Virus record (IMG/VR): IMGVR_UViG_3300009527_000004
Span: 1 to 35,411 of that record
Strand: one strand, 5' to 3'
From: a virus
DNA length: 35,411 nucleotides
Position 1 is the first letter of the stretch, and every line of letters starts with the position of its first letter. Of this stretch, positions 1,953 through 30,775 are shown in pieces. Under the pieces are notes generated by a model. It did not search any database. It was given only the letters and a program-made list of their open reading frames with translations, and was not told where the DNA came from. Both the position numbers and the translations under genes were made by a program.

Positions 1953-1960
1953 CTAAATAC
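1953..1960 (+). promoter_or_regulatory. CTAAATAC late-promoter-like element
   Basis: CTAAATAC lies 34 bases before the ATG at 1987 and just downstream of the big inverted repeat. It matches the CTAAATAG family found ahead of other transcription blocks and resembles the T4-type late -10 element TATAAATA. The remainder of 1887-1986 holds two similar CCTCCA words and a TGGAGA ribosome binding site at 1975-1980. Confidence 0.45.
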
Positions 1961-1986
1961 TTTTACCACACCAATGGAGACAACTG

Positions 1987-2532
1987 ATGGACCTCACCGT
2001 CATCCGCGACTTTGCCCCAACCACCGCCTATGCCCTCAGGGAGTTCGACTCCTACAAGGCCGCCCTCAAGTCGTTTGAGGTAGCCGCTAAGCGGGTGTGC
2101 CACCTCCGGGGCGACTGCATCGAACCTGACCTGGATATCACCGACCAACGAACCGCCAACGCGCTTGTTCAGTTCCTCCTCTGGACGCGCCGCTTCTCCG
2201 ATGAGCAATGGGCTCAAGGCGTCGAGGTCTCAAAGCCGGAGCTGATAGAGGTGGCTGGGCAGGCCGATCGCCCCCTTGACCAGGCTCGCCGCGCCTGCCT
2301 CGTTCGCATCAAGACCGGCTACCGCAAGGGAGGGGAGTCCGACACCTACTCGCTGTCGCGTCCCCACCTGAAAGGGATCGCGCTGGTCCTGGCCGCCAAC
2401 GCCGCCTACCAGGCGGCCATGTCGATGCGCTCGATGGAGAAGCAGGCGGAGGACATCGACATCGAAGGGCGCCTGAACGCCGCGCTGCGCTGCGACCCGC
2501 TCTACACCAACCCTCTGCTGGAGGCCGCATGA
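1987..2532 (+). CDS. Hypothetical protein heading a five-gene unit
   Basis: This 181-residue protein is not recognised. It is largely helical, with MDLTVIRDFAPTTAYALREF at the N-terminus, two Cys residues near 38 and 45 (CHLRGDC), and an Ala-rich helical C-terminus. It has no signal peptide. The start is supported by TGGAGA six bases upstream and by the noncoding region before it. Its last bases overlap the ATG of the next small gene. It leads a tightly coupled run ending at 4121. Placement next to the hairpin-rich region makes a role in replication or host takeover possible, but the sequence does not show it. Confidence 0.75.
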   Translation: MDLTVIRDFAPTTAYALREFDSYKAALKSFEVAAKRVCHLRGDCIEPDLDITDQRTANALVQFLLWTRRFSDEQWAQGVEVSKPELIEVAGQADRPLDQARRACLVRIKTGYRKGGESDTYSLSRPHLKGIALVLAANAAYQAAMSMRSMEKQAEDIDIEGRLNAALRCDPLYTNPLLEAA

Positions 2533-2675
2533 AGCTGCTCACCGCCATTCGTCTAAGCCACCTCGTTCGAATCGCCCTCAACGAGGCTGAGACCGAGAAA
2601 ACCGCGCGAGACAAGCTTGAGGACCTCCTCCTTCTTCTTGAGCAGCTCATCGCCCGGGAGAAGGAGCCAGCGTGA
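2529..2675 (+). CDS. Small coiled-coil protein, 48 residues
   Basis: A short gene of 48 residues. It starts MKLLTAIRLSHLVRIALNEA and runs through a Leu/Glu-rich helix with five consecutive Leu residues near position 33, ending REKEPA. A single amphipathic or coiled-coil helix is likely. It is called because it fills the gap exactly: its ATG overlaps the previous stop (ATGA) and its stop overlaps the next start (GTGA). Function is unknown. Confidence 0.6.
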   Translation: MKLLTAIRLSHLVRIALNEAETEKTARDKLEDLLLLLEQLIAREKEPA

Positions 2676-2884
2676 ACCCCTACACCCTGCACCGCCATCC
2701 CGGCACACCAGCTGACTTCTACCGGGAGATCGACAACCACATCTGGTTTCTGACCGATGAGCTGAAGCGGCTGAAGAAGCTCAAGCAGGCGGGCCCTGGC
2801 CCAGACGACCTCAGCTTCAGCTACCGGCTCCCGACCATCCAGGAGCAGCTGGACCTCGTGGACCAGGTGCTCAAGGGTCACTGA
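2672..2884 (+). CDS. Small hypothetical protein, 70 residues
   Basis: The start is GTG, overlapping the stop of the previous gene (GTGA). The product has a His/Tyr-rich N-terminus (NPYTLHRHPGTPADFYREID) and a basic helix (LKRLKKLKQA) before a Gly-Pro linker, ending in a second helix. No family is recognised. The stop shares one base with the ATG of the nuclease gene, so the two are probably translated together. Confidence 0.65.
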   Translation: MNPYTLHRHPGTPADFYREIDNHIWFLTDELKRLKKLKQAGPGPDDLSFSYRLPTIQEQLDLVDQVLKGH

Positions 2885-3606
2885 TGTTCCACGTCTACGC
2901 CCTCTCCGATCCGGGTGGCGGTCCCTACCGCTACATCGGTCGAACGGGCGTGGACGCCAACAAGCGCACCTGCGACTACGTCTCCCTGGCCCGCTTTCAC
3001 AGCCGAAGGGGCCGCACCCTCTCCCCCTTCTTCCACTGGCTCCTCCAGCTCGACACCCTCAACCTCCGCCCCAAGATCACGAACCTCCTCTCCTTCTCCT
3101 CCGAGGACCGAGCCAAGGAGTTCCAGCTCCAGCTCCTCGAGACCTACCCGGGCCTCCTCAACGACCCCAGCCCCGCCCGCTGCGTCACCGGCAAGACCCT
3201 CGGCACCCTCGACACCGCCCTCGGCAAGGCCAACAAGCTAGCCGCCAACAAGAACATGGGCTCCAGGAGGGACCTCATGACCATCTCCTACGTCAGAAGG
3301 CGGGCCGCCCTCGGCTACCCCCACCCCGAGCTTCACGTCACCCACCCCCTGAACTGGGACCACTGCCGCCAGGTCAACAACTACCGGCCGACCTACACCT
3401 CTCCCGCCCGCCAGGCCTCCCTCGCCCTCGCCCAGCGCAAGCGAGCCTACACCTGGCGCCTCTTCCTCGGCCTCCCCTTTCCCGAGCACGGCACCCGCGA
3501 TCACCGCAACACCCTCCAGTACTACCACGCCACCCGTCACCCCCGCTTCATGCCCCTGCGGGACTTCCTCAAGACCAAACCCCGACCCAGAAAGCTCTTC
3601 AAATGA
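2884..3606 (+). CDS. GIY-YIG family endonuclease
   Basis: 240 residues. The N-terminal domain fits the GIY-YIG nuclease fold. VYA (4-6) stands for GIY and YIG (17-19) is exact, followed by Arg28, His39, Glu79 and Asn93 at the spacing of the catalytic Arg, His/Tyr, Glu and Asn of the family. Such enzymes cut DNA using one metal ion. The C-terminal 140 residues are very basic (ending KTKPRPRKLFK) and probably bind DNA. It lies inside an overlapping operon, not inside an intron or another gene, so a resident nuclease (host DNA degradation, exclusion of rival phages, or replication) is as plausible as a free-standing homing enzyme. This is the only nuclease outside the terminase. Confidence 0.75.
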   Translation: MFHVYALSDPGGGPYRYIGRTGVDANKRTCDYVSLARFHSRRGRTLSPFFHWLLQLDTLNLRPKITNLLSFSSEDRAKEFQLQLLETYPGLLNDPSPARCVTGKTLGTLDTALGKANKLAANKNMGSRRDLMTISYVRRRAALGYPHPELHVTHPLNWDHCRQVNNYRPTYTSPARQASLALAQRKRAYTWRLFLGLPFPEHGTRDHRNTLQYYHATRHPRFMPLRDFLKTKPRPRKLFK

Positions 3607-4121
3607 AAACCGCCCTTCTCCTTGCCGCCCTGATCTCAACCTCGGCCTCCGCCTTTGACATCAAGGGGTTCAAGGTAGATGAGCCGCTCGACTGCGCCGC
3701 GGTAAAGGCACTTAGCCCCAAGTCACTAGCCATGATCCAGGCCTGCGAGCGGGGGGTGAACCCACGCATCTACGTGGATGGCCCATTTCTCAGCCAATCA
3801 GCTAACTTTATGTTCAAGCGGGGACCTGACAGCGTGCTGCTCGACATCTACGTGACCAACTTCGACTTCGACGAGGCGCTGGCCGCCCTTACCCTCAAGT
3901 GGGGCAAGCCGGTGCTGGAGCACAGCACCGTGACCAATCGAATGGGCGCCACCTTTGATCAGGTAGAGGCCACCTGGAAAAAAGACACGTACACGCTCGT
4001 GCTTAAGAAGCATGCCGGCAAGATCGATCACCCAAGCCTGTTCCTCGTCAGCAGCAGATCGATGGATCGCTTCAACCAGGAGCAGGCCGAGAAGCTGAAG
4101 AAGAACGCAGACAACATCTGA
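3603..4121 (+). CDS. Exported (periplasmic) protein of unknown function
   Basis: 172 residues with a clear Sec signal peptide: Lys2, a hydrophobic core LLLAALI, and an ASA cleavage site after residue 17. The mature protein starts FDIKGFKVDEPLDC and has two Cys (31 and 48) that could form a disulfide. It contains the segment ALTLKWGKP, which is common in small bacterial periplasmic proteins. It has no lipobox, transmembrane helix or lytic motif. A phage protein sent to the periplasm could act in superinfection exclusion, envelope change or lysis control; none is proven. The gene overlaps the nuclease stop (ATGA) and ends the first operon. Confidence 0.75.
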   Translation: MKTALLLAALISTSASAFDIKGFKVDEPLDCAAVKALSPKSLAMIQACERGVNPRIYVDGPFLSQSANFMFKRGPDSVLLDIYVTNFDFDEALAALTLKWGKPVLEHSTVTNRMGATFDQVEATWKKDTYTLVLKKHAGKIDHPSLFLVSSRSMDRFNQEQAEKLKKNADNI

Positions 4122-4135
4122 CCCCCGGGAGCCCC

Positions 4136-4143
4136 CTAAATAG
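4136..4143 (+). promoter_or_regulatory. CTAAATAG element, possible leaderless start
   Basis: CTAAATAG sits in the 25-base gap after the exported protein, within CCCCTAAATAGGGG, which is itself an inverted repeat (CCCCTA/TAGGGG with AA between). The ATG of the next gene follows only three bases later. If this works as a late -10 element, the transcript would start within or just after the ATG. Confidence 0.4.
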
Positions 4144-4146
4144 GGG

Positions 4147-4338
4147 ATGGCCCGACCCACCGATGAAGAGCGGCTTCGGCTCCCGCTCAAGCGGGCCCGA
4201 AAGCTCCGCCTCGCCAACCCTCACCCAGTAGTCCTGCCCTCCGGGCAGGTGCTCGAGCGCGCCCTCGTGATCGCCCTGGGAGAGGTGAAGCCCTCCACCA
4301 TCAAGCGCAGGCGCGCGCTGCTTCTACCTGTCGTCTAA
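4147..4338 (+). CDS. Small basic protein, 63 residues
   Basis: A strongly basic product (MARPTDEERLRLPLKRARKL at the start; KPSTIKRRRALLLPVV at the end). It has no recognised family. The Arg/Lys content suggests nucleic-acid binding. It has no normally spaced ribosome binding site: AGGGG directly abuts the ATG. The stop TAA forms part of the next CTAAATAG element. A real gene is likely because it fills the space before the terminase, but the start is uncertain. Confidence 0.5.
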   Translation: MARPTDEERLRLPLKRARKLRLANPHPVVLPSGQVLERALVIALGEVKPSTIKRRRALLLPVV

Positions 4339-4342
4339 ATAG
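4335..4342 (+). promoter_or_regulatory. CTAAATAG element before the terminase genes
   Basis: CTAAATAG overlaps the stop of the small basic gene and lies 36 bases before the ATG at 4371. A ribosome binding site TGGAGC (4361-4366) follows. This fits the start of the packaging and head transcript. Confidence 0.5.
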
Positions 4343-4370: not shown

Positions 4371-4790
4371 ATGGACCTCTTTGAACCACCGCCCGAGTGG
4401 AGTAACCCGAAAGTCTTCCGCAGGTCGAAGACGCAGCGAGATATCGCCTTGACGCCCCTCAAGGTGTATGACATGGCGCGCCACTACTACACGCTCGATG
4501 AGATCGCTGAGGCCTTCCAGGTGGAGCGGCTCACCCTGCAGCTGGATGAGGAGTGCCACACCGCCTTCCTCGAGGGCAAGAGGAACGCCATGCAGAAGCC
4601 GCGCATGCTCCTGCTCAAGCTCTTCAACGACTTCACCGACAAGGACCTCTCCGACAAGGACGTGCCCGTTGGGAACCTGCTCAAGGCGATGGAGCTCCAC
4701 GCCAAGAAGCACGAGGGAATGGCCGACAAGGTGGTCGTGCATGAGAAGCCAAGCGTGTCGGACGTCAAGTTTGACCCCCTCACTAAATGA
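4371..4790 (+). CDS. terS: Terminase small subunit
   Basis: 139 residues directly upstream of and overlapping the large subunit gene. Residues about 28-60 (LKVYDMARHYYTLDEIAEAF onward) form a helix-turn-helix of the kind small terminases use to bind the packaging site. The middle (MQKPRMLLLKLFNDFTDK) would form the oligomerising helices, and the C-terminal tail VSDVKFDPLTK may contact the large subunit. The call rests on position, length and the helix-turn-helix. Start chosen at ATG 4371, five bases after GGAG. The last codons ACT AAA TGA also contain CTAAATGA, and the stop overlaps the terL ATG. Confidence 0.75.
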   Translation: MDLFEPPPEWSNPKVFRRSKTQRDIALTPLKVYDMARHYYTLDEIAEAFQVERLTLQLDEECHTAFLEGKRNAMQKPRMLLLKLFNDFTDKDLSDKDVPVGNLLKAMELHAKKHEGMADKVVVHEKPSVSDVKFDPLTK

Positions 4791-6121
4791 GGTTCAAGCT
4801 TACCCCGCACCAGCAGGCATTCTGCGGTGACGTGTCCTCCAACTTCCTGTCGATCATTGGTGGCTTCGGATCGGGTAAGACGCACGCCTTCTGCGTGAAG
4901 TCAATCATCCTCGCGGGTCTCAACGCCGGCTATGAGGGCGCCCTGGCGGAGCCGACCAACTACCTCGTTCGCACCCGCCTCGTGCCTGCTATGCTGGCCC
5001 TGCTGGAGGAGCACCGCATCCCCTATGACTACGAGAAGTCCGATCAGATCTTCCGCCTTCACTTCCGCGAGGGGACCACCACCATCTACTGCCTGTCGGG
5101 TGAGAACTGGGAGCGTCTCGTTGGCTACAACCTGGCCTTCTTCGGCAGCGATGAGACCGACACCTCCAACCAGGACATCGCCGAGGCCATGTGGCTCAAG
5201 GCCATCTCTCGCGTACGGTGGGGCCCGGTCCGTCAGATCTTCAGCACCTCCACTCCTGAGGGCTACAAGTTCCTGCACTCCTTCTTCGTGGAGAAGCCGC
5301 GCCAGCTGGGGACCCTCGAGGTCCTGACGGGCGAGGCCCCTGGGGTAGAGGGGTCCTACGTGCGGGAGCACAAGGGCACGCTGCTGATGGGTGACTCGCA
5401 CTTCACCACGCGCGCCATCCACGCCACGTCCTACGAGAACCCCCTGCTCGACCTGTCCTACATCAACTCGATGAAGGCCAACTACACTCTCCAGCAGTGG
5501 AAGGTGTGGGCGCTTGGGCAGTTCGGCACCCTCTTCAGCCAGCTCGTCTACCCCTACTTCAATCGCGAGAAGAACCACACCAACCGAGAGGTCACCACCT
5601 TCAGCCGGTTTGAGCCCCTCCACGTGGGCATGGACTTCAACGTGGGCAAGATGGCGGCCGTGTGCGCCTTCATCGACGGCAGGGACTGCCTGGTGATCGA
5701 TGAGATCACGGGGCTGGCGGACACGAGAGCCATGATCGCGGAGATCCGGAAGCGGTATCCCCAGCGGCCCATCCTTGTCTACCCCGATGCCAGCGGAAAG
5801 AACCGCTCCGTCACGGGAGTGGACACCTCGCACTCGATGCTCAGGGAAGCGGGCTTCAAGGTGGTCGTGGATCCATCTAACCCGCTCGTGGGGGACCGCG
5901 TCAACTCCGTGAACGCCCGCTTCCTCTCAGCGGCTGACCAGAGGCACCTCTTCCTAAATACCGCGAGGTGCCCCGTGCTTACCCGCTGCCTCGAGCAGCA
6001 GCTCTGGGTCAATGGGGAGCCGGACAAGAAGTCCGACCTTGACCACCCGCCCGATGCGCTGGGCTACCTCGTGCACAAGAACTGGCCGCTCACCGGCCGC
6101 CCGACCCTAAGGAGCAGCTGA
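4787..6121 (+). CDS. terL: Terminase large subunit
   Basis: 444 residues, the usual length. This is the ATP-driven motor that packs DNA into the prohead and cuts it. Walker A is GGFGSGKT (25-32). The Walker B region is LAFFGSDE (116-123), with Asp122 and the catalytic Glu123. A coupling motif FSTSTPEG follows (152-159). The C-terminal RNase H-like nuclease has HVGMDFNVG (Asp283), VIDEI (Asp305/Glu306), VYPDASG (Asp334) and DHPPDALGY (Asp423), giving a full acidic set. The ATG overlaps the terS stop. The stop overlaps the portal ATG (TGATG). CTAAATAC occurs inside the gene at 5954-5961. Confidence 0.95.
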   Translation: MRFKLTPHQQAFCGDVSSNFLSIIGGFGSGKTHAFCVKSIILAGLNAGYEGALAEPTNYLVRTRLVPAMLALLEEHRIPYDYEKSDQIFRLHFREGTTTIYCLSGENWERLVGYNLAFFGSDETDTSNQDIAEAMWLKAISRVRWGPVRQIFSTSTPEGYKFLHSFFVEKPRQLGTLEVLTGEAPGVEGSYVREHKGTLLMGDSHFTTRAIHATSYENPLLDLSYINSMKANYTLQQWKVWALGQFGTLFSQLVYPYFNREKNHTNREVTTFSRFEPLHVGMDFNVGKMAAVCAFIDGRDCLVIDEITGLADTRAMIAEIRKRYPQRPILVYPDASGKNRSVTGVDTSHSMLREAGFKVVVDPSNPLVGDRVNSVNARFLSAADQRHLFLNTARCPVLTRCLEQQLWVNGEPDKKSDLDHPPDALGYLVHKNWPLTGRPTLRSS

Positions 6122-7515
6122 TGGCGTACATGGACCTCTTTGACGAGAAGGCAAAGGCCTTGGCCTGCCGCTGCCTCGACTACTACGATGGGCGCTCGAA
6201 GGAGCACCTCATCAAGTTCCTCCAGACGTACCGCAAGTACGCGCTGGGCAAGGGGCTGATTCCTCGCACCCGCAACCTGACGAAGAAGATCGCCGACAAG
6301 TCAGGCCTCCTCTTCAACGGCAAGCCGCCCATGGTCGAGGTCTACCCGGTAGATGACGCTCCTTCTCCTGATGACGCGCTGAGCGCCCAGCTGCACGAGC
6401 TGTTTGAGTCCGCTCGGTGGGTGGAGTTCTTCAGCAACTTCGACCCGACCGTCCGGCTGCTGAAGACCGCGTGGGTGCTGGTGCAGTACGCGCCTGAGAA
6501 GGACCGGTGGGTCATGGACACGATGACGCAGGCCAACGCGGCCGTGAGCGTCGACCTGTTTGGCGACCTCGAGGTCCTGCTCTACGAGACGGGCAAGGTC
6601 GATGACTACCGCACCTTCAAGGTATGGACGCCGCTGGAGGTGTTTGACCTCTACGTGGACAAGGCGGGCAACGAGGAGAAGCGGGACGCCCTGCCCAACC
6701 CCTACGGCGTCATTCCCGCGGCCGTCTTCTACGACACCAACGTGCCGAGGTCAGGGGCCTGGAACCCGATTCCCGAGGACCTGATCGAGGTCAACGACAT
6801 GTACAACCTCCACATCACGGACTCGGAGTACACCGCCTCGTGGAACAAGCAGCCGACCCTCTTCACCAACGCGCAGATCCAAGGCGGCACGGGCACGCAG
6901 TACGTCGAGAAGCAGGTCTATGGTGAGCCGCTGCCAAGGTGGGTTCCTTCCTCCGCCCCTGGGTTTGTGGGCGGGCCAGGCACCGTGGTCGGCATCGAGA
7001 CCAACGGGGAGCAGGTCTACCTCGAGTACAAGAAGCCCGATGTTGACCTGATGCCCCTCGATGACATCATGTCGAAGTGGGTGGCCGACTACGCGGACGA
7101 CTGGTCCGTCAACATCAAGCTCGACGGGCAGGGGTCCGCGGCCGACTCCGGCTTCAAGCTGGTGGTCGAGGAGCTGCCGAACCTGGAGCTCCGCAAGGCG
7201 CGCCAGCGGATGTTCGAGGCCGGCTTTGAGCGGCTCTTTGAGGTCATCAAGAACGTGGGCGCCTACCACGGCGTCACCTTCCCACCTGAGGCGGTCGTGG
7301 ACGTGACGTTCTCCACCCCTGACCTACCGGTCGATGAGAAGGCGTCCGAGGAGGTGTGGTCGATCCGCATCTCCGAGGGAAGAGCGTCCCGCGTCGACTA
7401 CTTCATGGCCACCAAGGGGCTGTCGCTTGAGGAGGCCGAGGCAAAGGTCGCGGAGATCGACGCCTACGGTGATAAGCCCGCCCCTGTTGCCCCACCAATC
7501 ACGCCAGTGGTGTAA
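6121..7515 (+). CDS. Portal protein
   Basis: 464 residues, right after the large terminase and before the scaffold, the standard place for the portal. Twelve copies form the ring through which DNA enters and leaves the head. The sequence matches the SPP1-type portal style: an N-terminal alpha/beta part with LTKKIADKSGLLFNGKPP, a central beta region with ETGKVDDYRTFKVWTPLEVF, then NDMYNLHITDSEY and a long helical stem near residues 350-400 (LVVEELPNLELRKARQRMFE). The acidic, Pro-rich tail is typical. The ribosome binding site AAGGAG precedes the ATG by six or seven bases. The stop TAA overlaps a GTAAATAG element. Confidence 0.85.
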   Translation: MAYMDLFDEKAKALACRCLDYYDGRSKEHLIKFLQTYRKYALGKGLIPRTRNLTKKIADKSGLLFNGKPPMVEVYPVDDAPSPDDALSAQLHELFESARWVEFFSNFDPTVRLLKTAWVLVQYAPEKDRWVMDTMTQANAAVSVDLFGDLEVLLYETGKVDDYRTFKVWTPLEVFDLYVDKAGNEEKRDALPNPYGVIPAAVFYDTNVPRSGAWNPIPEDLIEVNDMYNLHITDSEYTASWNKQPTLFTNAQIQGGTGTQYVEKQVYGEPLPRWVPSSAPGFVGGPGTVVGIETNGEQVYLEYKKPDVDLMPLDDIMSKWVADYADDWSVNIKLDGQGSAADSGFKLVVEELPNLELRKARQRMFEAGFERLFEVIKNVGAYHGVTFPPEAVVDVTFSTPDLPVDEKASEEVWSIRISEGRASRVDYFMATKGLSLEEAEAKVAEIDAYGDKPAPVAPPITPVV

Positions 7516-7544
7516 ATAGAGCACCTTGAGAGGTGGAACCTCTC
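7512..7544 (+). promoter_or_regulatory. GTAAATAG element and leader hairpin before the scaffold gene
   Basis: GTAAATAG (7512-7519) is a one-base variant of the CTAAATAG family. Nine bases later a perfect 7-bp hairpin GAGAGGT/ACCTCTC (7528-7534, 7538-7544) with loop GGA would lie at the 5' end of the transcript. No T-run follows, so it is not a terminator. It may stabilise the mRNA for scaffold and capsid proteins, which are needed in large amounts. Confidence 0.45.
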
Positions 7545-7588
7545 GCCTAATACGCATCTCATACTTCCGCAAGGAGCACTCCATTTCT

Positions 7589-8173
7589 ATGGAACCAAAG
7601 GACCAACCTGGTGTAGGTGACCAGGGCGAAAGCCAAACGACCGAGGCAGGTGACCTAAAGGCGAAGCTCGCCGACATGATATCGGAGCGAGACAAGCTGC
7701 AGATCAAGCTGCGCGAACTGGGTAAGGACAGCGAGGCACTTAAGTCTCTGAGGAAGCAGGTGGAGGACCTTATGGTCGAGAAGTCCACGGTTGCCAACGA
7801 GTATGAGAGCTTCAAGCAGAACGTACGCGACAAGGAACTTCAGACAGCCGTGACCACCGCCTTGGTTGACGCTGGAGCGAAGAACCCCGACACCGTGAGG
7901 CGCCTGCTCGACCTGGCCAAGCTTAAGTTCGACGATGGAAAGCTCAACCAGGAGAGCCTAGAGGAGCTTGTCAAGGGAATCAAGGAGAGCGACCCGTACC
8001 TGTTCAAGGAACCGGGAAGCAGCGACCCGCCAAAGGGCCCCGTGCCCGAGATCAGGCGCCCCGCCCCTAACCAGGGAAAGAGCGCGTTTGAGCTGGAGCT
8101 GGAAGCGGCCAAGGCCTCCAAGGACCCCTTCAAGGCGATCGAGGACCTCCTTCGGAAGCATGGAAAAGCCTAA
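7589..8173 (+). CDS. Head scaffolding protein
   Basis: 194 residues from ATG 7589. This start is preferred over an in-frame TTG at 7526, because the upstream extension overlaps the leader hairpin and AAGGAG (7571-7576) lies 12 bases before the ATG. The protein is acidic, with a disordered N-terminus (PGVGDQGESQTTEAGD), a long coiled coil (about residues 20-75, AKLADMISERDKLQIKLREL), a small helical region and a Pro-rich linker before a short C-terminal helix (FKAIEDLLRKHGKA), which is where scaffolds usually bind the coat protein. It sits between portal and major capsid genes, as scaffolds do. It is expected to leave the prohead before packaging is complete. Confidence 0.85.
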   Translation: MEPKDQPGVGDQGESQTTEAGDLKAKLADMISERDKLQIKLRELGKDSEALKSLRKQVEDLMVEKSTVANEYESFKQNVRDKELQTAVTTALVDAGAKNPDTVRRLLDLAKLKFDDGKLNQESLEELVKGIKESDPYLFKEPGSSDPPKGPVPEIRRPAPNQGKSAFELELEAAKASKDPFKAIEDLLRKHGKA

Positions 8174-8188
8174 CCAAGGAGCATCAAG

Positions 8189-9115
8189 ATGCCATTCACG
8201 ACCAATCTAACCGGCACCGCGCAGCTGGACGACAGCATCGTCCAGGCGTATGACGCCGCGTTCATCGTAGCCTACGGGCAGAACGACGTAACCACGAGCC
8301 TCGCTCAGTACCGCGCCGACCCCGGCGCCAAGTCGATCGAGTTCCCTCGCTACAGCCTGCTCTCGCTGGCCACCACTCCCCTCGATGAGGTGGAGGACGT
8401 GATCTCCGAGGCCGTTGCCGACACGAAGGTGATCTTCACCCCGGTCGAGTACGGTAAGGCAGTTACCACCACGGCCCTGGCCAACCTTCAGACCGGAGGT
8501 CGCGCGGATGTTGCCGCAGCCCGCCTGGTCGGGGTCAACCTCGGGCAGACCCTCAACAAGCTGGCCACCATCGCCATGGAGGCCACCACCAACACGCTCA
8601 TCATCGGTGGCGTGACGGAGGACCTGCTCACTGATGCCAACATCATGAGCTCGGCGGCCATCAACGGCGTCTACAACAAGCTGGCTCGCGCCAACGTACC
8701 GTTCCACTCGGGCTCGTCCTACGTGGCGGTGGCTCACGACGACGTGCTGCACGACATCCGTGCAGGGGCGGCGGCAGGTGAGTGGCTGGACGTCAACAAG
8801 TACGCCGACCCGAGCACGGTGCTGGCCAATGAGGTCGGCATGTACCGCGGCTTCCGTTGGATCCGGAACAACCACGCCTCGCAGGTGGACCAGTCCGGTG
8901 CCGGCACGGTGGACGTCTACAACACGTGCTTCATGGGCTTCAACGCCCTGGGTGCCGCGATCAGCAAGACCCCGACCCTCACGATCACCGGTCCGTTCGA
9001 CAAGCTGGGTCGCTTCGTGAACCTCGGTTGGCACGGTGTGCTCGAGTTCAAGATCGTTGAGCCGACCGCCATCTGGAAGCTGCGCTCAGCCTCCAGCGTG
9101 GGTGCCAACACCTAA
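8189..9115 (+). CDS. Major capsid protein
   Basis: 308 residues. It begins MPFTTNLTGTAQLDDSIVQA and has features of HK97-fold coat proteins: EFPRYSLLSLATTPLDEVED (the extended loop region), a long helix TLNKLATIAMEATTNTLI, then VPFHSGSSYVAVAHDDVLHD and a C-terminal strand. The fold is inferred from context and pattern, not from a match. It is placed after the scaffold and ends at a strong terminator, consistent with a high-output gene. The ribosome binding site AAGGAG is seven bases before the ATG. No prohead protease gene is present, so maturation by scaffold release is expected. Confidence 0.85.
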   Translation: MPFTTNLTGTAQLDDSIVQAYDAAFIVAYGQNDVTTSLAQYRADPGAKSIEFPRYSLLSLATTPLDEVEDVISEAVADTKVIFTPVEYGKAVTTTALANLQTGGRADVAAARLVGVNLGQTLNKLATIAMEATTNTLIIGGVTEDLLTDANIMSSAAINGVYNKLARANVPFHSGSSYVAVAHDDVLHDIRAGAAAGEWLDVNKYADPSTVLANEVGMYRGFRWIRNNHASQVDQSGAGTVDVYNTCFMGFNALGAAISKTPTLTITGPFDKLGRFVNLGWHGVLEFKIVEPTAIWKLRSASSVGANT

Positions 9116-9135
9116 CAGCTTCCTTGCAGGAGCCA

Positions 9136-9158
9136 GGGGACCTTCGGGTCCCCTTTTT
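9136..9158 (+). terminator. Rho-independent terminator after the capsid gene
   Basis: A perfect stem GGGGACC/GGTCCCC (9136-9142, 9147-9153) closes a stable TTCG tetraloop and is followed by TTTTT. It lies 20 bases after the capsid stop and ends the packaging/head transcript before the minus-strand cassette. Confidence 0.95.
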
Positions 9159-9165
9159 CTGCCTC

Positions 9166-9198
9166 GGGAAAAGAAAAGGGCCCTCACGAGGAGGGCCC
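9166..9198 (-). terminator. Rho-independent terminator of the minus-strand cassette
   Basis: Read on the minus strand, GGGCCCTC/GAGGGCCC (9198-9191, 9185-9178) with a 5-base loop is followed by TTTTCTTTT. It faces the plus-strand terminator, so the two converging transcripts are insulated from each other. Between it and the first minus gene (9199-9253) I see only a GTAAATAC word on the minus strand (9244-9237). Confidence 0.9.
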
Positions 9199-9253
9199 AA
9201 TTTGTCTTGGAGAAGACTGCCTGCAACTCAGGCTGGGTATTTACTGGGCGGGC

Positions 9254-9451
9254 TCAGTTGATGGTCCAGGACAGCGGGCAGAAGCCTTGGCCGATGAAGA
9301 CGTTCGCGTTGCCGGCGCTGAAGCGGTAGACGCAGACGGTGCCGTACTTGCCGGTGACGGACTGGCCTTGATACTGCGTGACGAGGTAGCCCATCTCAGC
9401 GAAGGCCGAGGTGGAGACGATGAGGGCGAGGGCGGCGATCAGGTGCTTCAT
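9254..9451 (-). CDS. Small secreted protein with two cysteines
   Basis: 65 residues with a Sec signal peptide (MKHLIAALALIVSTSAFA, cleavage after Ala18). The mature part is about 47 residues, with Cys40 and Cys58 likely in a disulfide and a closing CPLSWTIN. It resembles the small secreted Cys-containing proteins often found in phages and Gram-negative bacteria, whose role is unknown. It is last in the minus-strand cassette, 18 bases after the previous gene, with no strong ribosome binding site, so low or coupled translation is likely. A periplasmic task such as blocking superinfection is possible but unproven. Confidence 0.75.
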   Translation of the reverse strand: MKHLIAALALIVSTSAFAEMGYLVTQYQGQSVTGKYGTVCVYRFSAGNANVFIGQGFCPLSWTIN

Positions 9452-9469
9452 GTGGGTGCTTTCGGTTGA

Positions 9470-9895
9470 TTACTTCACCAGCGCCTGCAGCAGCTGCAGG
9501 TGCGTGCTCGTCAGCGGCTCGCCTTCGTCGATATTCACGAAGATGGCCGGACCACACACTCGGAAGCCAGCCAGCTTGGAGGCGATGGGGTTGTGGGACA
9601 TGCCATTCAGCAGGAAGCTGTCGTTGATGTAGGCGTAGATGCCGTAGCGAGCGAGGTGCGACTTGAAGATGGGGAGCTCTCCGATGCTGCCCTTGACCAT
9701 CTTCTGGAGGTTGTGCAGCGTGTAGTGCTCGGCGGTGGAGGTGCTGCCATCAGGGTCGATGCAGAAGATGGAAATCGCACCAGGGTTGCTCTTGTCGCAT
9801 TCAATGGGCAGACCGAGCAGGTCTGCCGTGTAGAGCTTCGGACCGCTGGCCTTCAGGGCGTCGATCTCGGACTTGCGGTTTTTGGCTTGACCCAT
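9470..9895 (-). CDS. Hypothetical protein of the MGQAKNR type (moron cassette)
   Basis: 141 residues from the ATG at 9895, eight bases after CGGAG. A longer in-frame version up to 9937 would begin inside the promoter, so it is rejected. It starts MGQAKNRKSEIDALKASGPK, a charged N-terminus seen in many uncharacterised phage and bacterial proteins. The remainder has mixed alpha/beta character (AISIFCIDPDGS, IYAYINDSFLLNG, GPAIFVNIDEGEP). No catalytic motif is evident. It is preceded by its own TATAAT promoter with the shared upstream element. It is probably cytoplasmic and made apart from the late genes. Confidence 0.75.
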   Translation of the reverse strand: MGQAKNRKSEIDALKASGPKLYTADLLGLPIECDKSNPGAISIFCIDPDGSTSTAEHYTLHNLQKMVKGSIGELPIFKSHLARYGIYAYINDSFLLNGMSHNPIASKLAGFRVCGPAIFVNIDEGEPLTSTHLQLLQALVK

Positions 9896-9925
9896 TTGAA
9901 TACTCCGGTTGGTTGCGATAGAGCC

Positions 9926-9970
9926 ATTATACATCAAGCGGGCCGGTTGAACACCAGAGAAGTGTAACCG
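9926..9970 (-). promoter_or_regulatory. Minus-strand promoter P1 with shared upstream element
   Basis: On the minus strand, CGGTTACACT (9970-9961) is followed after exactly 29 bases by TATAAT (9931-9926), inside GATGTATAATGGCT. The -35 position reads GTGTTC, a poor match to TTGACA. The same arrangement with the same 29-base spacing occurs at P2 (10737-10686), so the upstream element probably binds an activator or repressor. Confidence 0.75.
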
Positions 9971-9984
9971 GCCCTAGGTTTGTA

Positions 9985-10656
9985 TCAGGCGCCGCGGCTG
10001 TAGGGCTTGACCACGGAGACCTTGCCGTTCTTGCTGGTGCGGGTATGACCACCAACTTGATTTGGCGTGTAGCCGGCCTGTGTCAGGAAGTACTGGAAGA
10101 CGCTGTTGGTTGCGAGCTCGGTAACCGAGGCGAGCAGCTCGATGTTGGTCATCGTGAGGCTTGCCTTCTTCATCATGTCCATGGCACCCGGGGCAACCGC
10201 ACCGGAGATGTAGCCGTAGGTGCCGTCCTTGCAGCGGAAGGAGAGGAGCATCATCGAGGTCGTGGTACCAACTACACCGCGCTGCTTGAAGGTGGGGTTG
10301 TTGGCAACGAGCTGAGCAGCTAGCTGCTCAACTTCCTTGCGGGCTGCCTTGTCATCGCAGCGATCACCATCGAGGAGGTAGCCGAGACGCTGGGCAACAA
10401 CCAGCTGCTCCGCCACGGTGAGGACGGGTGCCAGGGCGGCCTGCTCTTCGGTGAGCAGGATATCCACGAAATCTGTCTCGCCGGTGATGTTGATGTGGCA
10501 GGCACCGACTGAGTGGCTGGCATCAGCGAAGCGCTGCTTCAGGCTGGGGTCCATGCCGAAGGTGTGGCCGGTCTGTTGGTTGATACCAGGGTAGCGCTTC
10601 AGGGTCTTGGCAGCTTCACGTTCCAGGGCTCGGCGTTGTTGGCGGCTGATAATCAT
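9985..10656 (-). CDS. Hypothetical protein, first gene of the minus-strand cassette
   Basis: 223 residues, start ATG at 10656 about eight bases after AAGGA. The N-terminus MIISRQQRRALEREAAKTLK is basic and helical, like the starts of many small phage proteins. The centre has two helical stretches (LTEEQAALAPVLTVAEQLVV, DDKAARKEVEQLAAQLVANN), then GVVGTTTSMMLLSFRCKDGT and a Met-rich region. The C-terminus is Gly/Lys-rich and basic. There is no signal peptide and no family I recognise. It has its own promoter P2. The gap to the next gene (9896-9984) holds promoter P1, so each gene can be read separately. Confidence 0.75.
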   Translation of the reverse strand: MIISRQQRRALEREAAKTLKRYPGINQQTGHTFGMDPSLKQRFADASHSVGACHINITGETDFVDILLTEEQAALAPVLTVAEQLVVAQRLGYLLDGDRCDDKAARKEVEQLAAQLVANNPTFKQRGVVGTTTSMMLLSFRCKDGTYGYISGAVAPGAMDMMKKASLTMTNIELLASVTELATNSVFQYFLTQAGYTPNQVGGHTRTSKNGKVSVVKPYSRGA

Positions 10657-10685
10657 CTTGAGGTCCTTTGGTTGTTGATGTAGCC

Positions 10686-10737
10686 ATTATACATCACCCA
10701 CCCAGGAAGTAAACAGCTCAAGTGTAACCGTTACACT
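10686..10737 (-). promoter_or_regulatory. Minus-strand promoter P2 with 17-bp operator palindrome
   Basis: TATAAT (10691-10686 on the minus strand) lies in GATGTATAATGGCT, identical over 14 bases to P1. Twenty-nine bases upstream is AGTGTAAC-C-GTTACACT (10721-10737), a 17-bp palindrome with 8-bp arms. One arm plus CG is the AGTGTAACCG also present at P1. The -35 position is GTTTAC. Full palindrome here and half-site at P1 suggest a dimeric regulator with stronger binding at P2. Confidence 0.75.
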
Positions 10738-10756: not shown

Positions 10757-10825
10757 CTAAATAGAAGACAAGATGAAGGAACGTTCAACCTTCTCCCCTG
10801 GTGCAACGCCAGCAGCAGGTTGAGC
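10757..10825 (+). promoter_or_regulatory. CTAAATAG element and structured leader
   Basis: CTAAATAG (10757-10764) restarts plus-strand transcription after the inverted cassette. The 126-base leader before the ATG at 10891 contains a long stem GTTCAACCT/AGGTTGAGC (10783-10791, 10817-10825; one G-T pair) enclosing a second stem CTGG/CCAG (10798-10801, 10809-10812). The rest of the leader (10826-10878) shows nothing I can name. A 16-codon open frame at 10773 lacks a ribosome binding site. Confidence 0.45.
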
Positions 10826-12014: not shown

Positions 12015-12380
12015 ATGGAAGCCGGCAAGCTCAACATCATCATCAACAAGAAGGCCACCTTCAGGCAGCGCGTCTACCTCCTACAGACGTATGACCCGCT
12101 CCTGCCCGTGGATGACCCGCTGCAGGTGCCGGTCGATCTTACCAACGCGGTCGCGACCGCCAAGGTCAAGAAGAAGATCACGGACACCGCGATCGTCATC
12201 GCGCTGGACGCCACCATTCCCGAGCCCACGAAGGGCTACGTGGACCTCTACCTCTCACCCGCGCAGACCTCCTCGTTGAACTTCGAGACGGGCGTGTGGG
12301 ACCTCTTCATCGCGTTTGGGCTTGGCGACGTGGTGAAGTATCTCGAGGGCTCCGTGGTGCTTGACAAGGCGGTGACATGA
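12015..12380 (+). CDS. Fibre-associated beta protein (BppU-N-like pattern)
   Basis: 121 residues. The pattern, an N-terminal [13 protein letters not shown] strand, then [20 protein letters not shown], a repeat of strands, [40 protein letters not shown] and a final VVLDKAVT, is typical of small Ig-like proteins that precede collagen-like fibres in phages and resemble the N-terminal domain of baseplate upper proteins. It probably anchors or caps the fibre encoded next. The sequence CTAAATGG spans its start (stop TAA of the previous gene, then ATG). Its stop overlaps the fibre ATG. Confidence 0.65.
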
Positions 12381-15300
12381 GTGATGTAACCGCCGTTGCG
12401 CTTCCTCTACAGATAAAGGTAGTCACGCTCACTACTGATATTACTGTAGTTGCGCTGCCTCTGCAAACTAAGGTCATTACTCTTGAGGAAGAGGTAGCGG
12501 TAGCTGTAGTTGGGGTGCAAGGAGCACCGGGAGCGGGTGGACCACCAGGTCCACAGGGCGATCCAGGACCCGCTGGTCCGACTGGAGCACCAGGCGCAGA
12601 TGGAGCACCAGGCGCAGATGGAGCAATTGGGCCACCAGGTCCACAAGGTGACCCAGGACCCGCTGGTCCGACTGGCGCAGATGGTGCCATTGGCCCGCCT
12701 GGTGCCGATGGGGCGACTGGCCCACAGGGTGACCCAGGGCCAATCGGACCTCAAGGTATCCAAGGCGTACCCGGTGCAGATGGGGCAACTGGTGCAACGG
12801 GGCCACAAGGAGATCCAGGTCCGATTGGCCCACAGGGCATTCAAGGCGTACCCGGTGCGGATGGAGTGGATGGGGCGATTGGCCCAGCCGGTCCTCAAGG
12901 CGATCCAGGACCACAAGGTGATCAGGGGGTCCAAGGCGACACTGGAGCCACAGGGCCGGCCGGCCCTGGCGTGGCTGCAGGGGGAATCGCCAATCAGGTT
13001 CTTACCAAGGTCGACGCCACGGACTTCAACACGCAGTGGGTTGACCCAAGTATTCCACCGGAGACGCTCGAGGACCTCACGGACGTCGATCTAGGCACGC
13101 CTTCCGACGGGCAGGTGCTCACCTTCTCCTCAGGTGAATGGACGAACGCCCAGCCTACGGGTACCTGGGGCCTCATCACGGGTGCCCTTGAGAACCAAGG
13201 TGACCTCAAGGAGGTCCTCACCAGCCTCGCCCACATCGCCAGCACCACGGGTGTCACGCGGACCTCCGACAGCGCCGGGCTCACCGCGCTGTCGGACACC
13301 GTCCTGCGCATCAACGCGCTGCAGCAGGGCATCTTCTACAACCAGCTCAACGCGGGCGTCAACAACGCGGTGCGGACCTTCGCGCAGCAGGACTGGCCGC
13401 TCTCCAACCTCGGGCTCTCCACCGACGGTTTCTTCATCCGCTACATCGGCTACCTCGAGAACGGCGATGTCGTTGTCTCCAACGACAACCTCAACTCGAA
13501 CTCGAACGCCCTTCAGCTCGGCTACATCCTCGTCAAGCGCGTGGGTGGGGTCACGACCTTCATCGATGGGGCCGCAGGTCCGCGCAACGCCCACTCGCAG
13601 CCTGACTTCGCGGGCAACACCGCCCTCCTTGAGGCCTTCGCCACCGCGGCCTCCGATGTGTTCGTGGAGCCCAAGGGCTCGCTCACCGTCCGCTCCTCCT
13701 CGGGGCTGGTGAAGGGCGAGTCCATCAACTGGGGCTCCGGGGACGTCAACGTGCGGGCGGTCGGTGCCCAGGACCCAACGACCTTCACGACCTACAACCC
13801 GGGCACGATGCTCTCGACCACGGCCCCAACTCCAGGCTCCACCGTCCAGGTGACGCAGTTCTGGAACGGGACCGCGATGCAGACCCTGGGCAACAACAAC
13901 CGGGCCTCCGTCCAGCGGTTCCTGGTCTCCATCCGCGGGCAGTTCGCCCTCCAGGTCGGTGAGGTCGAGTACTCGTCCTACCAGGACGCGATCGACAACA
14001 TCAACTTCGCGCCCTTCACGGAGCTCTTCCCGCAGCAGACCTTCATCGAGCTCTGCCGCTTCGCCTCAACGCGGGGCACCGTCAACCTCCAGACGGGCGC
14101 GACCTTCATCTACGGGCAGGGTGGCTCAGGCACGGGCGGTGGAGCCGCGGGCACGGTCACCTCGGTCGACGCCTCAGGTGCGACCACGGGGCTCACCTTC
14201 ACAGGTGGCCCGGTCACAAGCACGGGCGTCCTCACGCTAGGTGGCACGCTTGCCATCGGCTCAGGAGGCACGGGAGCTACTACAGCCAACGACGCGCTCA
14301 ACGCGCTGCTTCCAGCGCAGCCCACCCACGAAGGCGAGGCCCTCCTCACGGACGGCACCAACTCCTACTGGGGCCTGCCGGTCAGCTCGAGCGCGCAGCT
14401 CCTCAGCTACCGCTTCGTCACGGCCACCACGCCTCCTCCGGCCGGTGGTGACATCCGCTACAACAACGCGACCCAGACCGCGGCAACCCACATCTTCGTC
14501 AACAAGATCACCGCGGGCACGGCCACCGACCTCACCAACTACTACCGGAAGATCGTGCCCAACACCGTCTTCTTGGTCCAGTCGCGCGTCAACAACGGGC
14601 AGTACCATCGCTGGAACATCACCGCGGTAGTTGAGCAGAGCACGTACTTCGACTGGACGGTGGAGCTGCTTGACGCGAGCGGGGCGCCGTTTGGCAACAA
14701 CACGAACCTCGTGGTCGGCTACGTCTTCGCGGGTTCCGAGACGCTTGATCTAACTGACCTCGGGGACGTCACGATCACGACGCCTATCTCGAGCCAGGTA
14801 CTGAGCTACAACGGGTCGCAATGGGTTAATGCGGCATCCGCTGCTGGCAGCACTAATCAGCTCCAATACAACAATGCAGGTGTGTTAACTGGAACAACAG
14901 GTATCACATATAGCACCGCAAATGGCGGTCACTTAAAGGTTGGAACAGGCAATGCCTTGCTGGGTTCAACTACTAACTCGACGGTGTTTGGCGCAGGCAA
15001 CGGGATCAATTCTGGTGGTTCACTTAATACATACGTGGGTTTTGAGGTTGCTCACCTGCTATCAGGTGGTGGTGGTGGTAATACCTTTATTGGAGCAAGA
15101 GCAGGTAGGTCTGCTGCAGTTAATAGCAGTCAAAATGTACTTGTTGGTGCTGATGCGGGCATCTCTAGCAGTGGAAGCGGCAGCGTTGTTATAGGTTCAG
15201 GTGCTCTTTTTGGATCACAGACAGGGACGGGGGGCAATGTAATCATCGGCATGAGCGCAGGTGGTTCCAAGGCACGAAGCGGTTCTTTGAATATTCTTAT

Positions 15301-21160: not shown

Positions 21161-21194
21161 CTAAATAGGGGGTGCCTACAGGGCACCCCTTTCT
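21161..21194 (+). promoter_or_regulatory. CTAAATAG element merged with a terminator hairpin
   Basis: CTAAATAG (21161-21168) is followed at once by the stem GGGGTGCC/GGCACCCC (21169-21176, 21182-21189) and TTTCT. Transcripts coming from upstream would form the hairpin and may stop. If the octamer acts as a -10 element, new transcripts would start within the left arm and could not form it. This may separate the tail tube block from the chaperone/tape measure block. Confidence 0.55.
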
Positions 21195-21658: not shown

Positions 21659-21804
21659 CCCTTGACCAGCTTACCCTCTACACGCGCTACGCGCGGAAGC
21701 TGGGTAACCGCCGCCTGGCCGAGCTGACGCACGTGGCCGCGATGGGGGCGCGCGGTGAGGACAAGGCGCTGCGTGAGTTTATGAGGAGTCTGGAGGGATC
21801 ATGA
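21538..21804 (+). CDS. Tail chaperone extension made by -1 frameshift (gpGT-type)
   Basis: This frame has no start of its own at the domain boundary. Joined at the slippery site it adds 88 residues to the first 107, giving about 195. It starts with a flexible linker (RPAGPAPVQGRHGASTGS) and then a conserved-looking domain DWGEVVTYLRGYGFNLAEIG, AMTLDQLTLYTRYARKLGNR and AAMGARGEDKALREFM. The motif L-EI-MTL-QL-LY is typical of the T part of GT chaperones. The stop overlaps the tape measure ATG (ATGA). An ATG at 21655 could start a short separate protein but has no ribosome binding site. Confidence 0.8.
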   Translation, partial: RPAGPAPVQGRHGASTGSDWGEVVTYLRGYGFNLAEIGAMTLDQLTLYTRYARKLGNRRLAELTHVAAMGARGEDKALREFMRSLEGS

Positions 21805-25911: not shown

Positions 25912-26317
25912 GATCATCCAGGCCGCCCTCTCGTGGGTCGGCACGCCCTACCACCACCAGGCCCGCGTGAAGGGCGTGGGGGTGGACTGCGCGCAGCTGA
26001 TCGCGGGCATCGCGGAGGACGTGGGCATCATCGAGCCAGGCACCCACATTCCCTTCGACTACTCACGGGAGTGGCACCTCCACTCCAGAGAGAGCCTGCT
26101 CGTGCGCAACCTGGAGCACTTCGGGTGTGTAAAGAAGGACAAGGCGGAGCCAGGGGACATCCTCTGCTTTCAGTACGGGCGCTGCATCAGCCACCTGGGC
26201 ATCCTCGTCCCGGGCAACCGCGTCGTCCATGCCGCCACCTACCTGGGGAAGGTGGTCCTAAATACCCTCGGTGAGGAGCTCCTCAGGCGGCACCGTCAAA
26301 CCTACTCATACCCATGA
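25895..26317 (+). CDS. NlpC/P60-type tail peptidase
   Basis: 140 residues from ATG 25895, overlapping the previous gene by 17 bases; a GTG at 25871 is possible but less likely. The papain-like catalytic set is visible: Cys32 in GVGVDCAQLI, His100 in CISHLGILVP and His112 in RVVHAATYL. Members of this family in GTA and lambda-like tails cut peptidoglycan peptides during entry. It is the only cell-wall hydrolase recognised in the genome. No holin is next to it. It may therefore also serve in lysis, but its neighbours say tail. CTAAATAC (26258-26265) lies inside, 56 bases before the next start. Confidence 0.85.
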   Translation: MSRSAEIIQAALSWVGTPYHHQARVKGVGVDCAQLIAGIAEDVGIIEPGTHIPFDYSREWHLHSRESLLVRNLEHFGCVKKDKAEPGDILCFQYGRCISHLGILVPGNRVVHAATYLGKVVLNTLGEELLRRHRQTYSYP

Positions 26318-28474: not shown

Positions 28475-28476
28475 GC

Positions 28477-30771
28477 ATGAGCTACTGCGCCCGCAACTCC
28501 AACACAACGAAGACCGCCTATGGCACGCCCGCCACCAAGACGGTAAACCCACCGCCAACGCGCACTGAGTCCTGCACACCTTCGCAGTCAACAGTGATAA
28601 GCGGTGGTGGCTCCAACACCGAGACAGAGGTTTCTGTTCCAGGACCAGCCGGACCTCCTGGACCAGCCGGACCACCAGGTAAGGACGGTTGGGGCTTCAT
28701 CTGGAAGGGGCAGTTCACCCTCAACGTGGAGTACAAGAAGCAGCAGGACTCCAACCCGCTGGCGGACGTGGTCGAGTACGCGGGCTCCTCGTGGATCGCA
28801 GTTGAGGACAACACCTCCACCGACCAGGACAACCCTGAGCATGAGCCAGGTAACTCGCCCTCTTGGCAGCTGGTTGCCCAGAAGGGAGTGGACGGGGCAG
28901 GCAGCAGTGACGGCTCCATCGGCCTGCCTGGCTTTGACTTCTTCAACTGGGGCGACGTCCTCAACTGGTTCAAGAACGCCTCCATAACCGACCTCATTAC
29001 CGCGGGCATCATAACTGCAGGCGTGATCTGGGCAGGAGCCGAGATCATCGACGCCATCACGGACGACGGAGAGGGCGATGGTCAGGCGGACACCCGCTAC
29101 GATGGCACACCAGGCACCATCTACACCAGCTACACGGCCCCCAACCTCCGTCAGGTGGTGGCCGCCCTCTGCGACCAGGCGCTGATCGCCTCGGACGTGA
29201 CCGCCCTGCCGACAACTCCCTGCGAGTTCATCATCGGGGCCAACACCTCCACCCGCGCCATCCTCGAGCAGCTCTCCCTCGTCCATGACTTCGACATGGT
29301 CGACACGGGCACGGTGCTCAAGTTCGTGCCGCGCAAGGTGGTAGTTGACCGCGTCCTCACCCTCGAGGACCTCGGCTTCAGCAACCCAGGCGAGCTGCAG
29401 TCGCGCTACGCGGCGCAGCGGCTGCAGGGAACGGACCTCCCACGGACCGTCACGTTCAACTACTCCGCCTTCGACATCGACTACAACACCTTCAGCCAGC
29501 GGGCGGAGCTGTTCCCCTACTCACAGGGGCAGGACGTCACGATCAGCGTGCCGTTCGTGCTGGACCACGAGCAGGCGCGCAACGCGGCCGAGACCACCCT
29601 CGTCAGCTCCCACCTCGAGCGCCAGTCCTACACCTTCGTGGTCAACTACCGCCACGCGGACCTGGAGCCAGGCGACGTGCTTGACACCCCGCTCGGCCTG
29701 CTGAAGGTCACTCGTGTCGATGAGAAGGAGGAGGGCCTCCTTGAGCTGACCGCGGTTGAGACCGGTGGTGGAGCCGCGGTGACCGCCTTCGCGGGCTCGC
29801 GCATGCCCGTGCAGCGCCCACCTGCCAGCACCAACGTGCCTACCTCGATCGGCTACTCAGGAGCCCTCTTCGTTGACGTGCCGGTGCTGAGCGTGGGCGA
29901 CCAGGGCGTCCGCCTCTACGCGGCCCTCCATGGCTTCAACCGACCCGGCTGGCCTGGAGCTCAGCTCTACTCGTCCGACAACGGAGGCGTCTCCTATGAC
30001 CTCGTAGGCACCGCCTACCAAGAGAGCACCTTCGGTCTCGTGGCTGCAGCTACTCCAGCGGCCGACTGGCACGTGTGGGACGACACCACCCAGATCTCAG
30101 TCACCCTCAAGACGGGCACCCTCTCCTCGGTCACGGAGTTTGACGTCCTCTCAGGTAAGAACTGGGCGATGGTAGGGCGGGAGCTGATCGGCTTCAAGAA
30201 CGCCGTCCTCACCGGGCCTATGACCTACACGCTGTCACGGTTGATCCGAGGCAGGCAGGGCACCGAGCCCAACGTAGGCACCCACGTGGCCGATGAGCTG
30301 TTCCTCCTGGTCGATGCCGCCCCGCTGCGGATCACCATGAACGCGGCCGACCGGCAGAAGGTCAAGAAGTACAAGGTCGTCACCATCGGCTCCTCGCTGG
30401 ACAAGGTCGACCCAGTTGACGTGGCCGTCGTCTCCTTCAACACCGTCCCCTGGACGGTCGCCAACGCGAAGGCCCTCAAGGTCGGAGCCGACTACCAGTT
30501 CTCCTGGGACGAGCGCAACCGCTTCGACAACGACCTCCAGGACTACACCGCCTCCCCACGCGACCCTGACTGGGGCGGCTTCTCGGTGGTCGTGTATGAT
30601 ACCAACGGAACGACCGTGAAGAAGTCCTACATGACGACCTCGGAGACCTTCACCTACACGAGCGCGATGCAGACCACCGACTTCGGGGCTCCACGGCCTA
30701 CCATCAAGGTGGACATCGTGCAGTACTCCCAGGTCTGGGGTCCTGGCATCCCAGTTACCCTCAACGCCTAA
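28477..30771 (+). CDS. Tail tip / host specificity protein core with collagen and carbohydrate-binding insert
   Basis: 764 residues. Residues 1-55 are low-complexity; 56-68 are a short collagen stub (GPAGPPGPAGPPG); 71-137 (GFIWKGQFTLNVEYKKQQ, DVVEYAGSSWIAVEDN, SWQLVAQKG) fit the small carbohydrate-binding modules often linked to collagen stubs in fibres; about 170-195 are hydrophobic. From about 210 on the sequence follows the Phage-tail_3 core of GTA/J-like tips: STRAILEQLSLVHDFDMVDT, VLTLEDLGF, VTFNYSAFDIDYNTFSQRAE, VVNYRHADLEPGDVLDTPLG. C-terminal Ig-like domains with GFNRPGWPGAQLYSSDNGGV and LSRLIRGRQGTE end the protein. It works with the N-terminal module at 26577. Confidence 0.85.
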   Translation: MSYCARNSNTTKTAYGTPATKTVNPPPTRTESCTPSQSTVISGGGSNTETEVSVPGPAGPPGPAGPPGKDGWGFIWKGQFTLNVEYKKQQDSNPLADVVEYAGSSWIAVEDNTSTDQDNPEHEPGNSPSWQLVAQKGVDGAGSSDGSIGLPGFDFFNWGDVLNWFKNASITDLITAGIITAGVIWAGAEIIDAITDDGEGDGQADTRYDGTPGTIYTSYTAPNLRQVVAALCDQALIASDVTALPTTPCEFIIGANTSTRAILEQLSLVHDFDMVDTGTVLKFVPRKVVVDRVLTLEDLGFSNPGELQSRYAAQRLQGTDLPRTVTFNYSAFDIDYNTFSQRAELFPYSQGQDVTISVPFVLDHEQARNAAETTLVSSHLERQSYTFVVNYRHADLEPGDVLDTPLGLLKVTRVDEKEEGLLELTAVETGGGAAVTAFAGSRMPVQRPPASTNVPTSIGYSGALFVDVPVLSVGDQGVRLYAALHGFNRPGWPGAQLYSSDNGGVSYDLVGTAYQESTFGLVAAATPAADWHVWDDTTQISVTLKTGTLSSVTEFDVLSGKNWAMVGRELIGFKNAVLTGPMTYTLSRLIRGRQGTEPNVGTHVADELFLLVDAAPLRITMNAADRQKVKKYKVVTIGSSLDKVDPVDVAVVSFNTVPWTVANAKALKVGADYQFSWDERNRFDNDLQDYTASPRDPDWGGFSVVVYDTNGTTVKKSYMTTSETFTYTSAMQTTDFGAPRPTIKVDIVQYSQVWGPGIPVTLNA

Positions 30772-30775
30772 ATAG
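30768..30775 (+). promoter_or_regulatory. CTAAATAG element before the tail fibre genes
   Basis: CTAAATAG overlaps the tip gene stop, within GCCTAAATAGGC (5-bp arms around AA). The ATG at 30803 is 35 bases downstream, after AAGGAG. This likely starts the fibre transcript that runs through the circular junction to 312 or beyond. Confidence 0.5.

Follow-up and report, generated by a model that had tools for sequence, protein, structure and literature searches.

The short word CTAAATA stands before nearly all of the forward gene blocks of a 35-kb siphovirus and is probably a T4-late-type promoter of this virus, a reading of the sequence that we hold at a probability of roughly 0.8. The over-representation, strand bias, and positional bias of CTAAATA in the 35,411-nt stretch of DNA that we analyzed (here called the window) are confirmed to be real, and the anatomy of the sites supports T4-type late promoters as the best reading of the putative element. 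From these observations we infer promoter function, together with a start site, late timing, and a factor that would read the word.

CTAAATA is over-represented on a single strand

The + strand of the window carries 10 copies of CTAAATA (at positions 1953, 4136, 4335, 5954, 10757, 18663, 19751, 21161, 26258, and 30768), versus ~0.14 expected under an order-2 Markov model, and the - strand carries 0. None of 400 genomes simulated with the order-2 model had more than 2 copies. With a GTAAATAG variant at 7512 on the + strand, there are 11 sites in total. The sequence-only reading had located these motifs, and all of its coordinates proved correct on recount. In an unbiased, genome-wide ranking of all 7-mers by over-representation, CTAAATA is first, and the corresponding top 6-mer and top 8-mer are TAAATA and CTAAATAG. 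Among 105 anagrams of CTAAATA that we compared, CTAAATA has 10 copies, the runner-up has 4, and the median is 0. The full octamer CTAAATAG is the commonest form, with 6 copies (4136, 4335, 10757, 19751, 21161, and 30768), and octamers with one mismatch occur 10 times on the + strand and once on the - strand.

Position of the word relative to genes

Seven of the 11 sites are not wholly within a gene, versus 4.5% of genome positions (binomial P, 1e-7). The only gene blocks that lack the T4-type word are gene 939, the moron cassette, and the fiber run-on gene 309. Beyond position 1530, CTAAATA overlaps or adjoins the beginning of every forward gap of at least 25 nt that precedes a + strand gene, or lies inside that gap, with the sole exception of 21659 to 21800, which sits behind the tail assembly chaperone, a place where tailed phages commonly have a frameshift product. 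Gaps that precede minus-strand genes contain no CTAAATA. The distance from the word to the start codon is typically 34 to 57 nt (6 of 11 sites, all but 4136, 5954, 7512, 10757, and 19751), and at four sites (4335, 7512, 19751, and 30768) the word covers the stop codon of the upstream gene.

All of the sites are on the + strand. The CTAAATAC at 1953 to 1960, with no other candidate in its 457-nt gap, would be the late promoter for an operon at 1987 to 4121, the first ATG of which (1987) is 34 nt on. This block had been taken for the terminase block; it is instead an operon of + strand genes with no assigned functions, with products of 181, 48, 70, 240, and 172 aa, of which the 240-aa product is GIY-YIG-like by eye. 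The 172-aa protein (3603 to 4121) has an apparent signal peptide, and no relative of it was found in genome_contigs. The CTAAATAG at 4136 to 4143 precedes ORF 4147 and the terminase operon, and a second copy at 4335 to 4342 lies 36 nt before TerS, with the stop codon of ORF 4147-4338 inside it as C-TAA-ATAG. The TerS, TerL, portal, scaffold, and major capsid genes (4371 to 9115, + strand) include the CTAAATAC at 5954 to 5961, which is within terL, has the portal gene 167 nt on, and is the weakest site by position, and the GTAAATAG variant at 7512 to 7519, which has the scaffold gene 77 nt on and holds the portal stop codon as G-TAA-ATAG.

The connector, tail, tail tip, and fiber genes (10891 to 34724, + strand) are preceded by the CTAAATAG at 10757 to 10764, in the divergent region past the moron cassette and 134 nt before gene 10891. 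The CTAAATAT at 18663 to 18670 is within ORF 18516-18716 and 50 nt before gene 18713. The CTAAATAG at 19751 to 19758 covers the stop codon of 19333-19758 and precedes 19760/19942 and the major tail protein gene; a GTG start (19760) follows the word directly, so that as a promoter this site would serve genes further down. The CTAAATAG at 21161 to 21168, with the tail assembly chaperone gene 57 nt on, directly abuts an 8-bp hairpin at 21169 to 21189 (GGGGTGCC-TACAG-GGCACCCC; 21161 to 21189 with the word). The CTAAATAC at 26258 to 26265 is within the NlpC/P60 tail gene, with gene 26314 at 56 nt, and the CTAAATAG at 30768 to 30775 holds the stop codon of 28477-30771 as C-TAA-ATAG, with fiber gene 30803 at 35 nt.

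Three copies of CTAAATA (5954, 18663, and 26258) are wholly coding, versus 0.18 expected from synonymous-codon resampling (P, 0.0005; at least 3 copies in 0.05% of trials). All three read CTA AAT A in frame, with rare codons. For two of them, the proposal that intragenic copies lie 50 to 56 bases before a gene start was upheld (18663 to 18713, 50 bases; 26258 to 26314, 56 bases).

Sigma70-like elements of the minus-strand cassette

A minus-strand cassette of three genes (9178 to 10713), typical of a moron, lies between the capsid and connector genes. It has a sigma70-like promoter sequence, TTTACT-16-TATAAT (10713 to 10686), followed by genes at 10656 to 9985, 9937 to 9470 (weak DUF3846 match), and 9451 to 9254 (65 aa, apparent signal peptide), and it ends with a terminator-like hairpin (9198 to 9178). 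A second exact TATAAT in this cassette is at 9931, and, AT-rich fiber genes aside, exact TATAAT is found only before minus-strand genes. No conserved -35 box accompanies the CTAAATA sites; upstream of them there is just a weak preference for A at offset -37. Thus, there are two promoter-like classes in this genome, CTAAATA and sigma70-like.

On the + strand, an intrinsic-terminator-like hairpin (9135 to 9154) just past the capsid gene comes before the minus-strand cassette, which has a TATAAT promoter of its own. Beyond the cassette, + strand transcription has to begin again, and CTAAATA is found there, at 10757. This CTAAATAG would restart forward transcription for the connector and tail genes. 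Another structure, a perfect inverted repeat of 23 bp (1830 to 1885; loop, 13 nt; fold z-score, -7.5), lies in the 457-nt gap shortly ahead of the first CTAAATA. No T run follows it, which speaks more for an origin, packaging site, or operator than for a plain terminator. Neither tRNAs nor Rfam families were found in the window.

The sites resemble late promoters of T4-superfamily phages

The putative late promoter consensus of Aeromonas phage Aeh1 is CTAAATA, from -12 (PMC1524935), and the late promoter consensus sequences of cyanophages and T4 are NATAAATA and TATAAATA, respectively (PMC2984593). The attribution of CTAAATA to cyanophages in the sequence-only reading was therefore inexact, the published cyanophage form being NATAAATA and CTAAATA being that of Aeh1, but CTAAATA counts on the two strands are indeed strongly biased in three cyanophages (Syn9, 23/2; S-RSM4, 2/28; S-PM2, 17/4). 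The sites in the window share with those of Aeh1 (Straboviridae) the identical seven bases, the single element, and the location upstream of late genes. In contrast, Aeh1 is a 233-kb T4-like phage with its own diverged gp55 and a gp45 clamp, neither of which is recognized in this 35-kb siphovirus.

T4-superfamily phages of GC-rich hosts also have more CTAAATA than reversed control (pf16, 13 versus 0; DLP6, 10 versus 1; phiM12, 26 versus 9). In the parts of the pf16 (52.5% GC) and DLP6 (55% GC) genomes that we fetched, NTAAATA lies 29 to 60 nt before a start codon at 11 of 15 and 5 of 7 sites, respectively (16 of 22 combined), and several of these hold the upstream stop as N-TAA-ATA. Thus, pf16 and DLP6 resemble the window in start distance, in the excess of CTAAATA over reversed control, and in the stop overlap seen at 4335, 7512, and 30768. 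They differ from it in that both mix ATAAATA and CTAAATA, whereas the window has almost only CTAAATA, and DLP6 differs further in having an annotated gp55.

Of the T4-like late regulon that had been proposed, the anatomy holds: the window has the T4-type traits of a short NTAAATA element before late genes and no -35 element, and the element is single, forward only, and overlaps stop codons. The gp55 sigma factor of the T4 system was not recognized. We propose that CTAAATA is a single-element late promoter that would act like those of T4-superfamily phages. RNA polymerase with a gp55-type factor would recognize just this word, placed at about -12 to -6, with no -35 element, and each late block would have its own RNA start about 5 nt past the octamer. 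The role of host sigma70 would be limited to the moron cassette and probably gene 939-1529. Several features count against this model. Neither TATAAATA, the exact T4 form, nor ATAAATA occurs in the window. At two sites, 4136 and 19751, the word is followed within 1 to 3 nt by a possible start codon, so those genes would need to lack a leader or be transcribed from promoters further upstream. The start expected at 21161, ~5 nt past the word, falls inside the left arm of the hairpin, so that the whole hairpin would be present only in read-through RNA.

Searches for a late sigma factor and for relatives

In the known cases, T4-type late promoters are accompanied by a gp55 sigma factor of their own. 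At E ≤ 10, nothing in the genome matches PHROG 234 (late sigma factor), Sigma70_r2, or Sigma70_r4_2. A gp55 profile that we built from ten phages detected the control proteins, four held-out gp55s, with 99.6 to 100% probability, whereas the top-scoring window ORF of at least 60 aa reached 2.2%. This bears out the earlier statement that no sigma factor is recognizable here; although its promoters resemble those of the T4 system, the window has no recognizable gp55 of its own, the gene by which that system is defined. A gp45 sliding clamp is also absent from the PHROG and Pfam matches of the scanned proteins. A 196-aa protein of no detected family is encoded at 939 to 1529 (+ strand) with no CTAAATA upstream, which makes it a candidate early gene and a candidate reader or activator. 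Single-sequence AlphaFold models of 939-1526 (pLDDT 33) and 1987-2529 (pLDDT 43) were too poor for use.

In IMG/VR we found no close relatives in which the placement of the word could be compared. The major capsid protein, portal, tail hub, and gene 939 have no relative there, and the major tail protein has one 29% match. The terminase has relatives with identities of up to 39%, in which CTAAATAG is not comparably in excess. We also considered paired-CTAAATAG loci in IMG/VR as regulons; among the matches listed, the five examined closely are repeat clusters rather than regulons. Eleven papers that contain CTAAATAG and speak of promoters are, judged by title or abstract, not about phages. No host was obtained from the secreted protein 3603-4118 and moron gene 9985-10656.

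The genome is apparently complete and largely structural

The ends of the contig (35289 to 35411 and 1 to 123) are identical over exactly 123 bp, giving what is apparently a complete circle of 35,288 bp. A + strand fiber ORF (34725 to 35411) is open across the join and continues in frame at 1 to 312, with GG-turn repeats in its protein on both sides; the overlap and the in-frame ORF are as expected for a closed assembly graph. The fiber run-on gene 309-854 matches a PHROG of unknown function. GC content falls from ~62% to 41 to 53% in the fiber genes (31000 to 35411), which suggests a recent exchange of the host-recognition region. Between the connector and tail genes, a 1,718-aa protein (12377 to 17533) has collagen-like GPQGDPGP repeats near its N terminus, and the adjoining 329-aa protein (17530 to 18519) has WD40-like repeats (Pfam WD40; E, 1e-9).

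Structural genes occupy about 30 of the 35 kb, and the genes outside the head, tail, and fiber sets are 309-854, 939-1529, those at 1987 to 4338, and the moron. PHROG and Pfam searches of the scanned window proteins recognized no replication, lysis, lysogeny, or RNA polymerase genes, and no integrase, which along with chromosomal residence is a trait of PICIs and cf-PICIs, is among the matches. The window has one trait of Flayer/Mulch-type satellite viruses, its own capsid and packaging genes; for a second, no replication genes are recognized, but six genes (939 to 4121) have no assigned function. This content is compatible with helper dependence and is suggestive only, since the genes without assigned function could hide replication, lysis, lysogeny, or RNA polymerase functions.

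What might read the word

If CTAAATA is a promoter, its reader would most plausibly, at somewhat less than even odds, be an unrecognized factor encoded here, with gene 939-1529 as the first candidate; gp55 supplied by a co-infecting T4-superfamily phage ranks just after this, a gene missing from the contig is improbable, and a host factor is more improbable still. An early phage factor that switches on late genes is the usual logic of phage late control, and we tentatively favor the possibility that gene 939-1529 is expressed early through host sigma70 and that its product then steers the RNA polymerase of the host to CTAAATA. The gene precedes the first CTAAATA, is outside the regulon, and is the only gene without a site that is neither moron nor fiber linked, and its sequence is novel. 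On the other hand, profile searches show no gp55 or sigma70 similarity in it, and its predicted fold is uninformative. It is about a one-in-three matter, in our estimation, whether the genome is instead that of a helper-dependent siphovirus, the late genes of which would fire only in cells infected by a T4-superfamily phage that provides gp55. The apparently complete, mostly structural circle with no recognized replication, lysis, lysogeny, or sigma genes, and with the T4-type word on nearly all blocks, is consistent with this, and there are precedents in bacteriophage satellites that have capsid genes and lack key replication genes (PMC10690885) and in Sputnik, which has mimivirus late promoters (PMC11998528). 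However, the six genes at 939 to 4121 could carry replication functions, and a lack of recognized genes is common in metagenomic phages.

It is unlikely that the contig is a late-region piece closed by a repeated fiber segment, with a gp55-type gene in the missing part. Nearly all of its genes are late, the join is within an AT-rich fiber gene, and the IMG/VR record carries no completeness estimate, but the 123-bp overlap is exact, the ORF is in frame across it, and further GG-turn repeats are present on either side. An alternative sigma factor or DNA-binding protein of the host would require no phage factor at all, yet the word matches T4-superfamily late promoters exactly, and CTAAATA is not, to our knowledge, the -10 element of a housekeeping, heat-shock, flagellar, or sigmaS promoter; we regard a host reader as quite unlikely. 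We give very little credence to the word being a stop-codon or RNA element rather than a promoter. TAA and TAG do occur in the word, in two frames, and it covers four upstream stops, but the sites at 1953, 4136, 10757, and 21161 are beyond stops (10757 is past a divergent cassette), the coding copies at 18663 and 26258 are away from them, and T4-superfamily late promoters show the same stop overlap.

A possible promoter-sharing satellite

In its fullest form, dependence on a helper would mean that a complete siphovirus builds a virion of its own, has nearly all of its genes controlled by late promoters of a T4-superfamily phage, and needs the gp55 of that helper, and probably also its replication and lysis functions. 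We consider this somewhat unlikely. If true, it would be a bacterial counterpart of the virophages that share the late promoters of a giant virus, and we know of no earlier satellite that shares promoters and has a complete tailed virion. Like this genome, the Flayer and Mulch satellites of Streptomyces (MiniFlayer and MulchRoom) have capsid and packaging genes and no recognized replication genes, but they are 15 to 17 kb with known helpers and direct terminal repeats (DTRs) of at least 1 kb, whereas the window has a full tail and fiber set and no known helper; promoters are not mentioned in the main text of that paper (PMC10690885). The Sputnik virophage would be alike, if the siphovirus does depend on a helper, as a smaller virus whose late promoters are of the type found in a larger virus, and it differs in its eukaryotic host, proven helper, and unrelated proteins (PMC11998528). 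A T4-type regulon without a recognizable gp55 would mean either that a new class of late-transcription factor chooses the same word or that this virus is timed by the late program of another virus.
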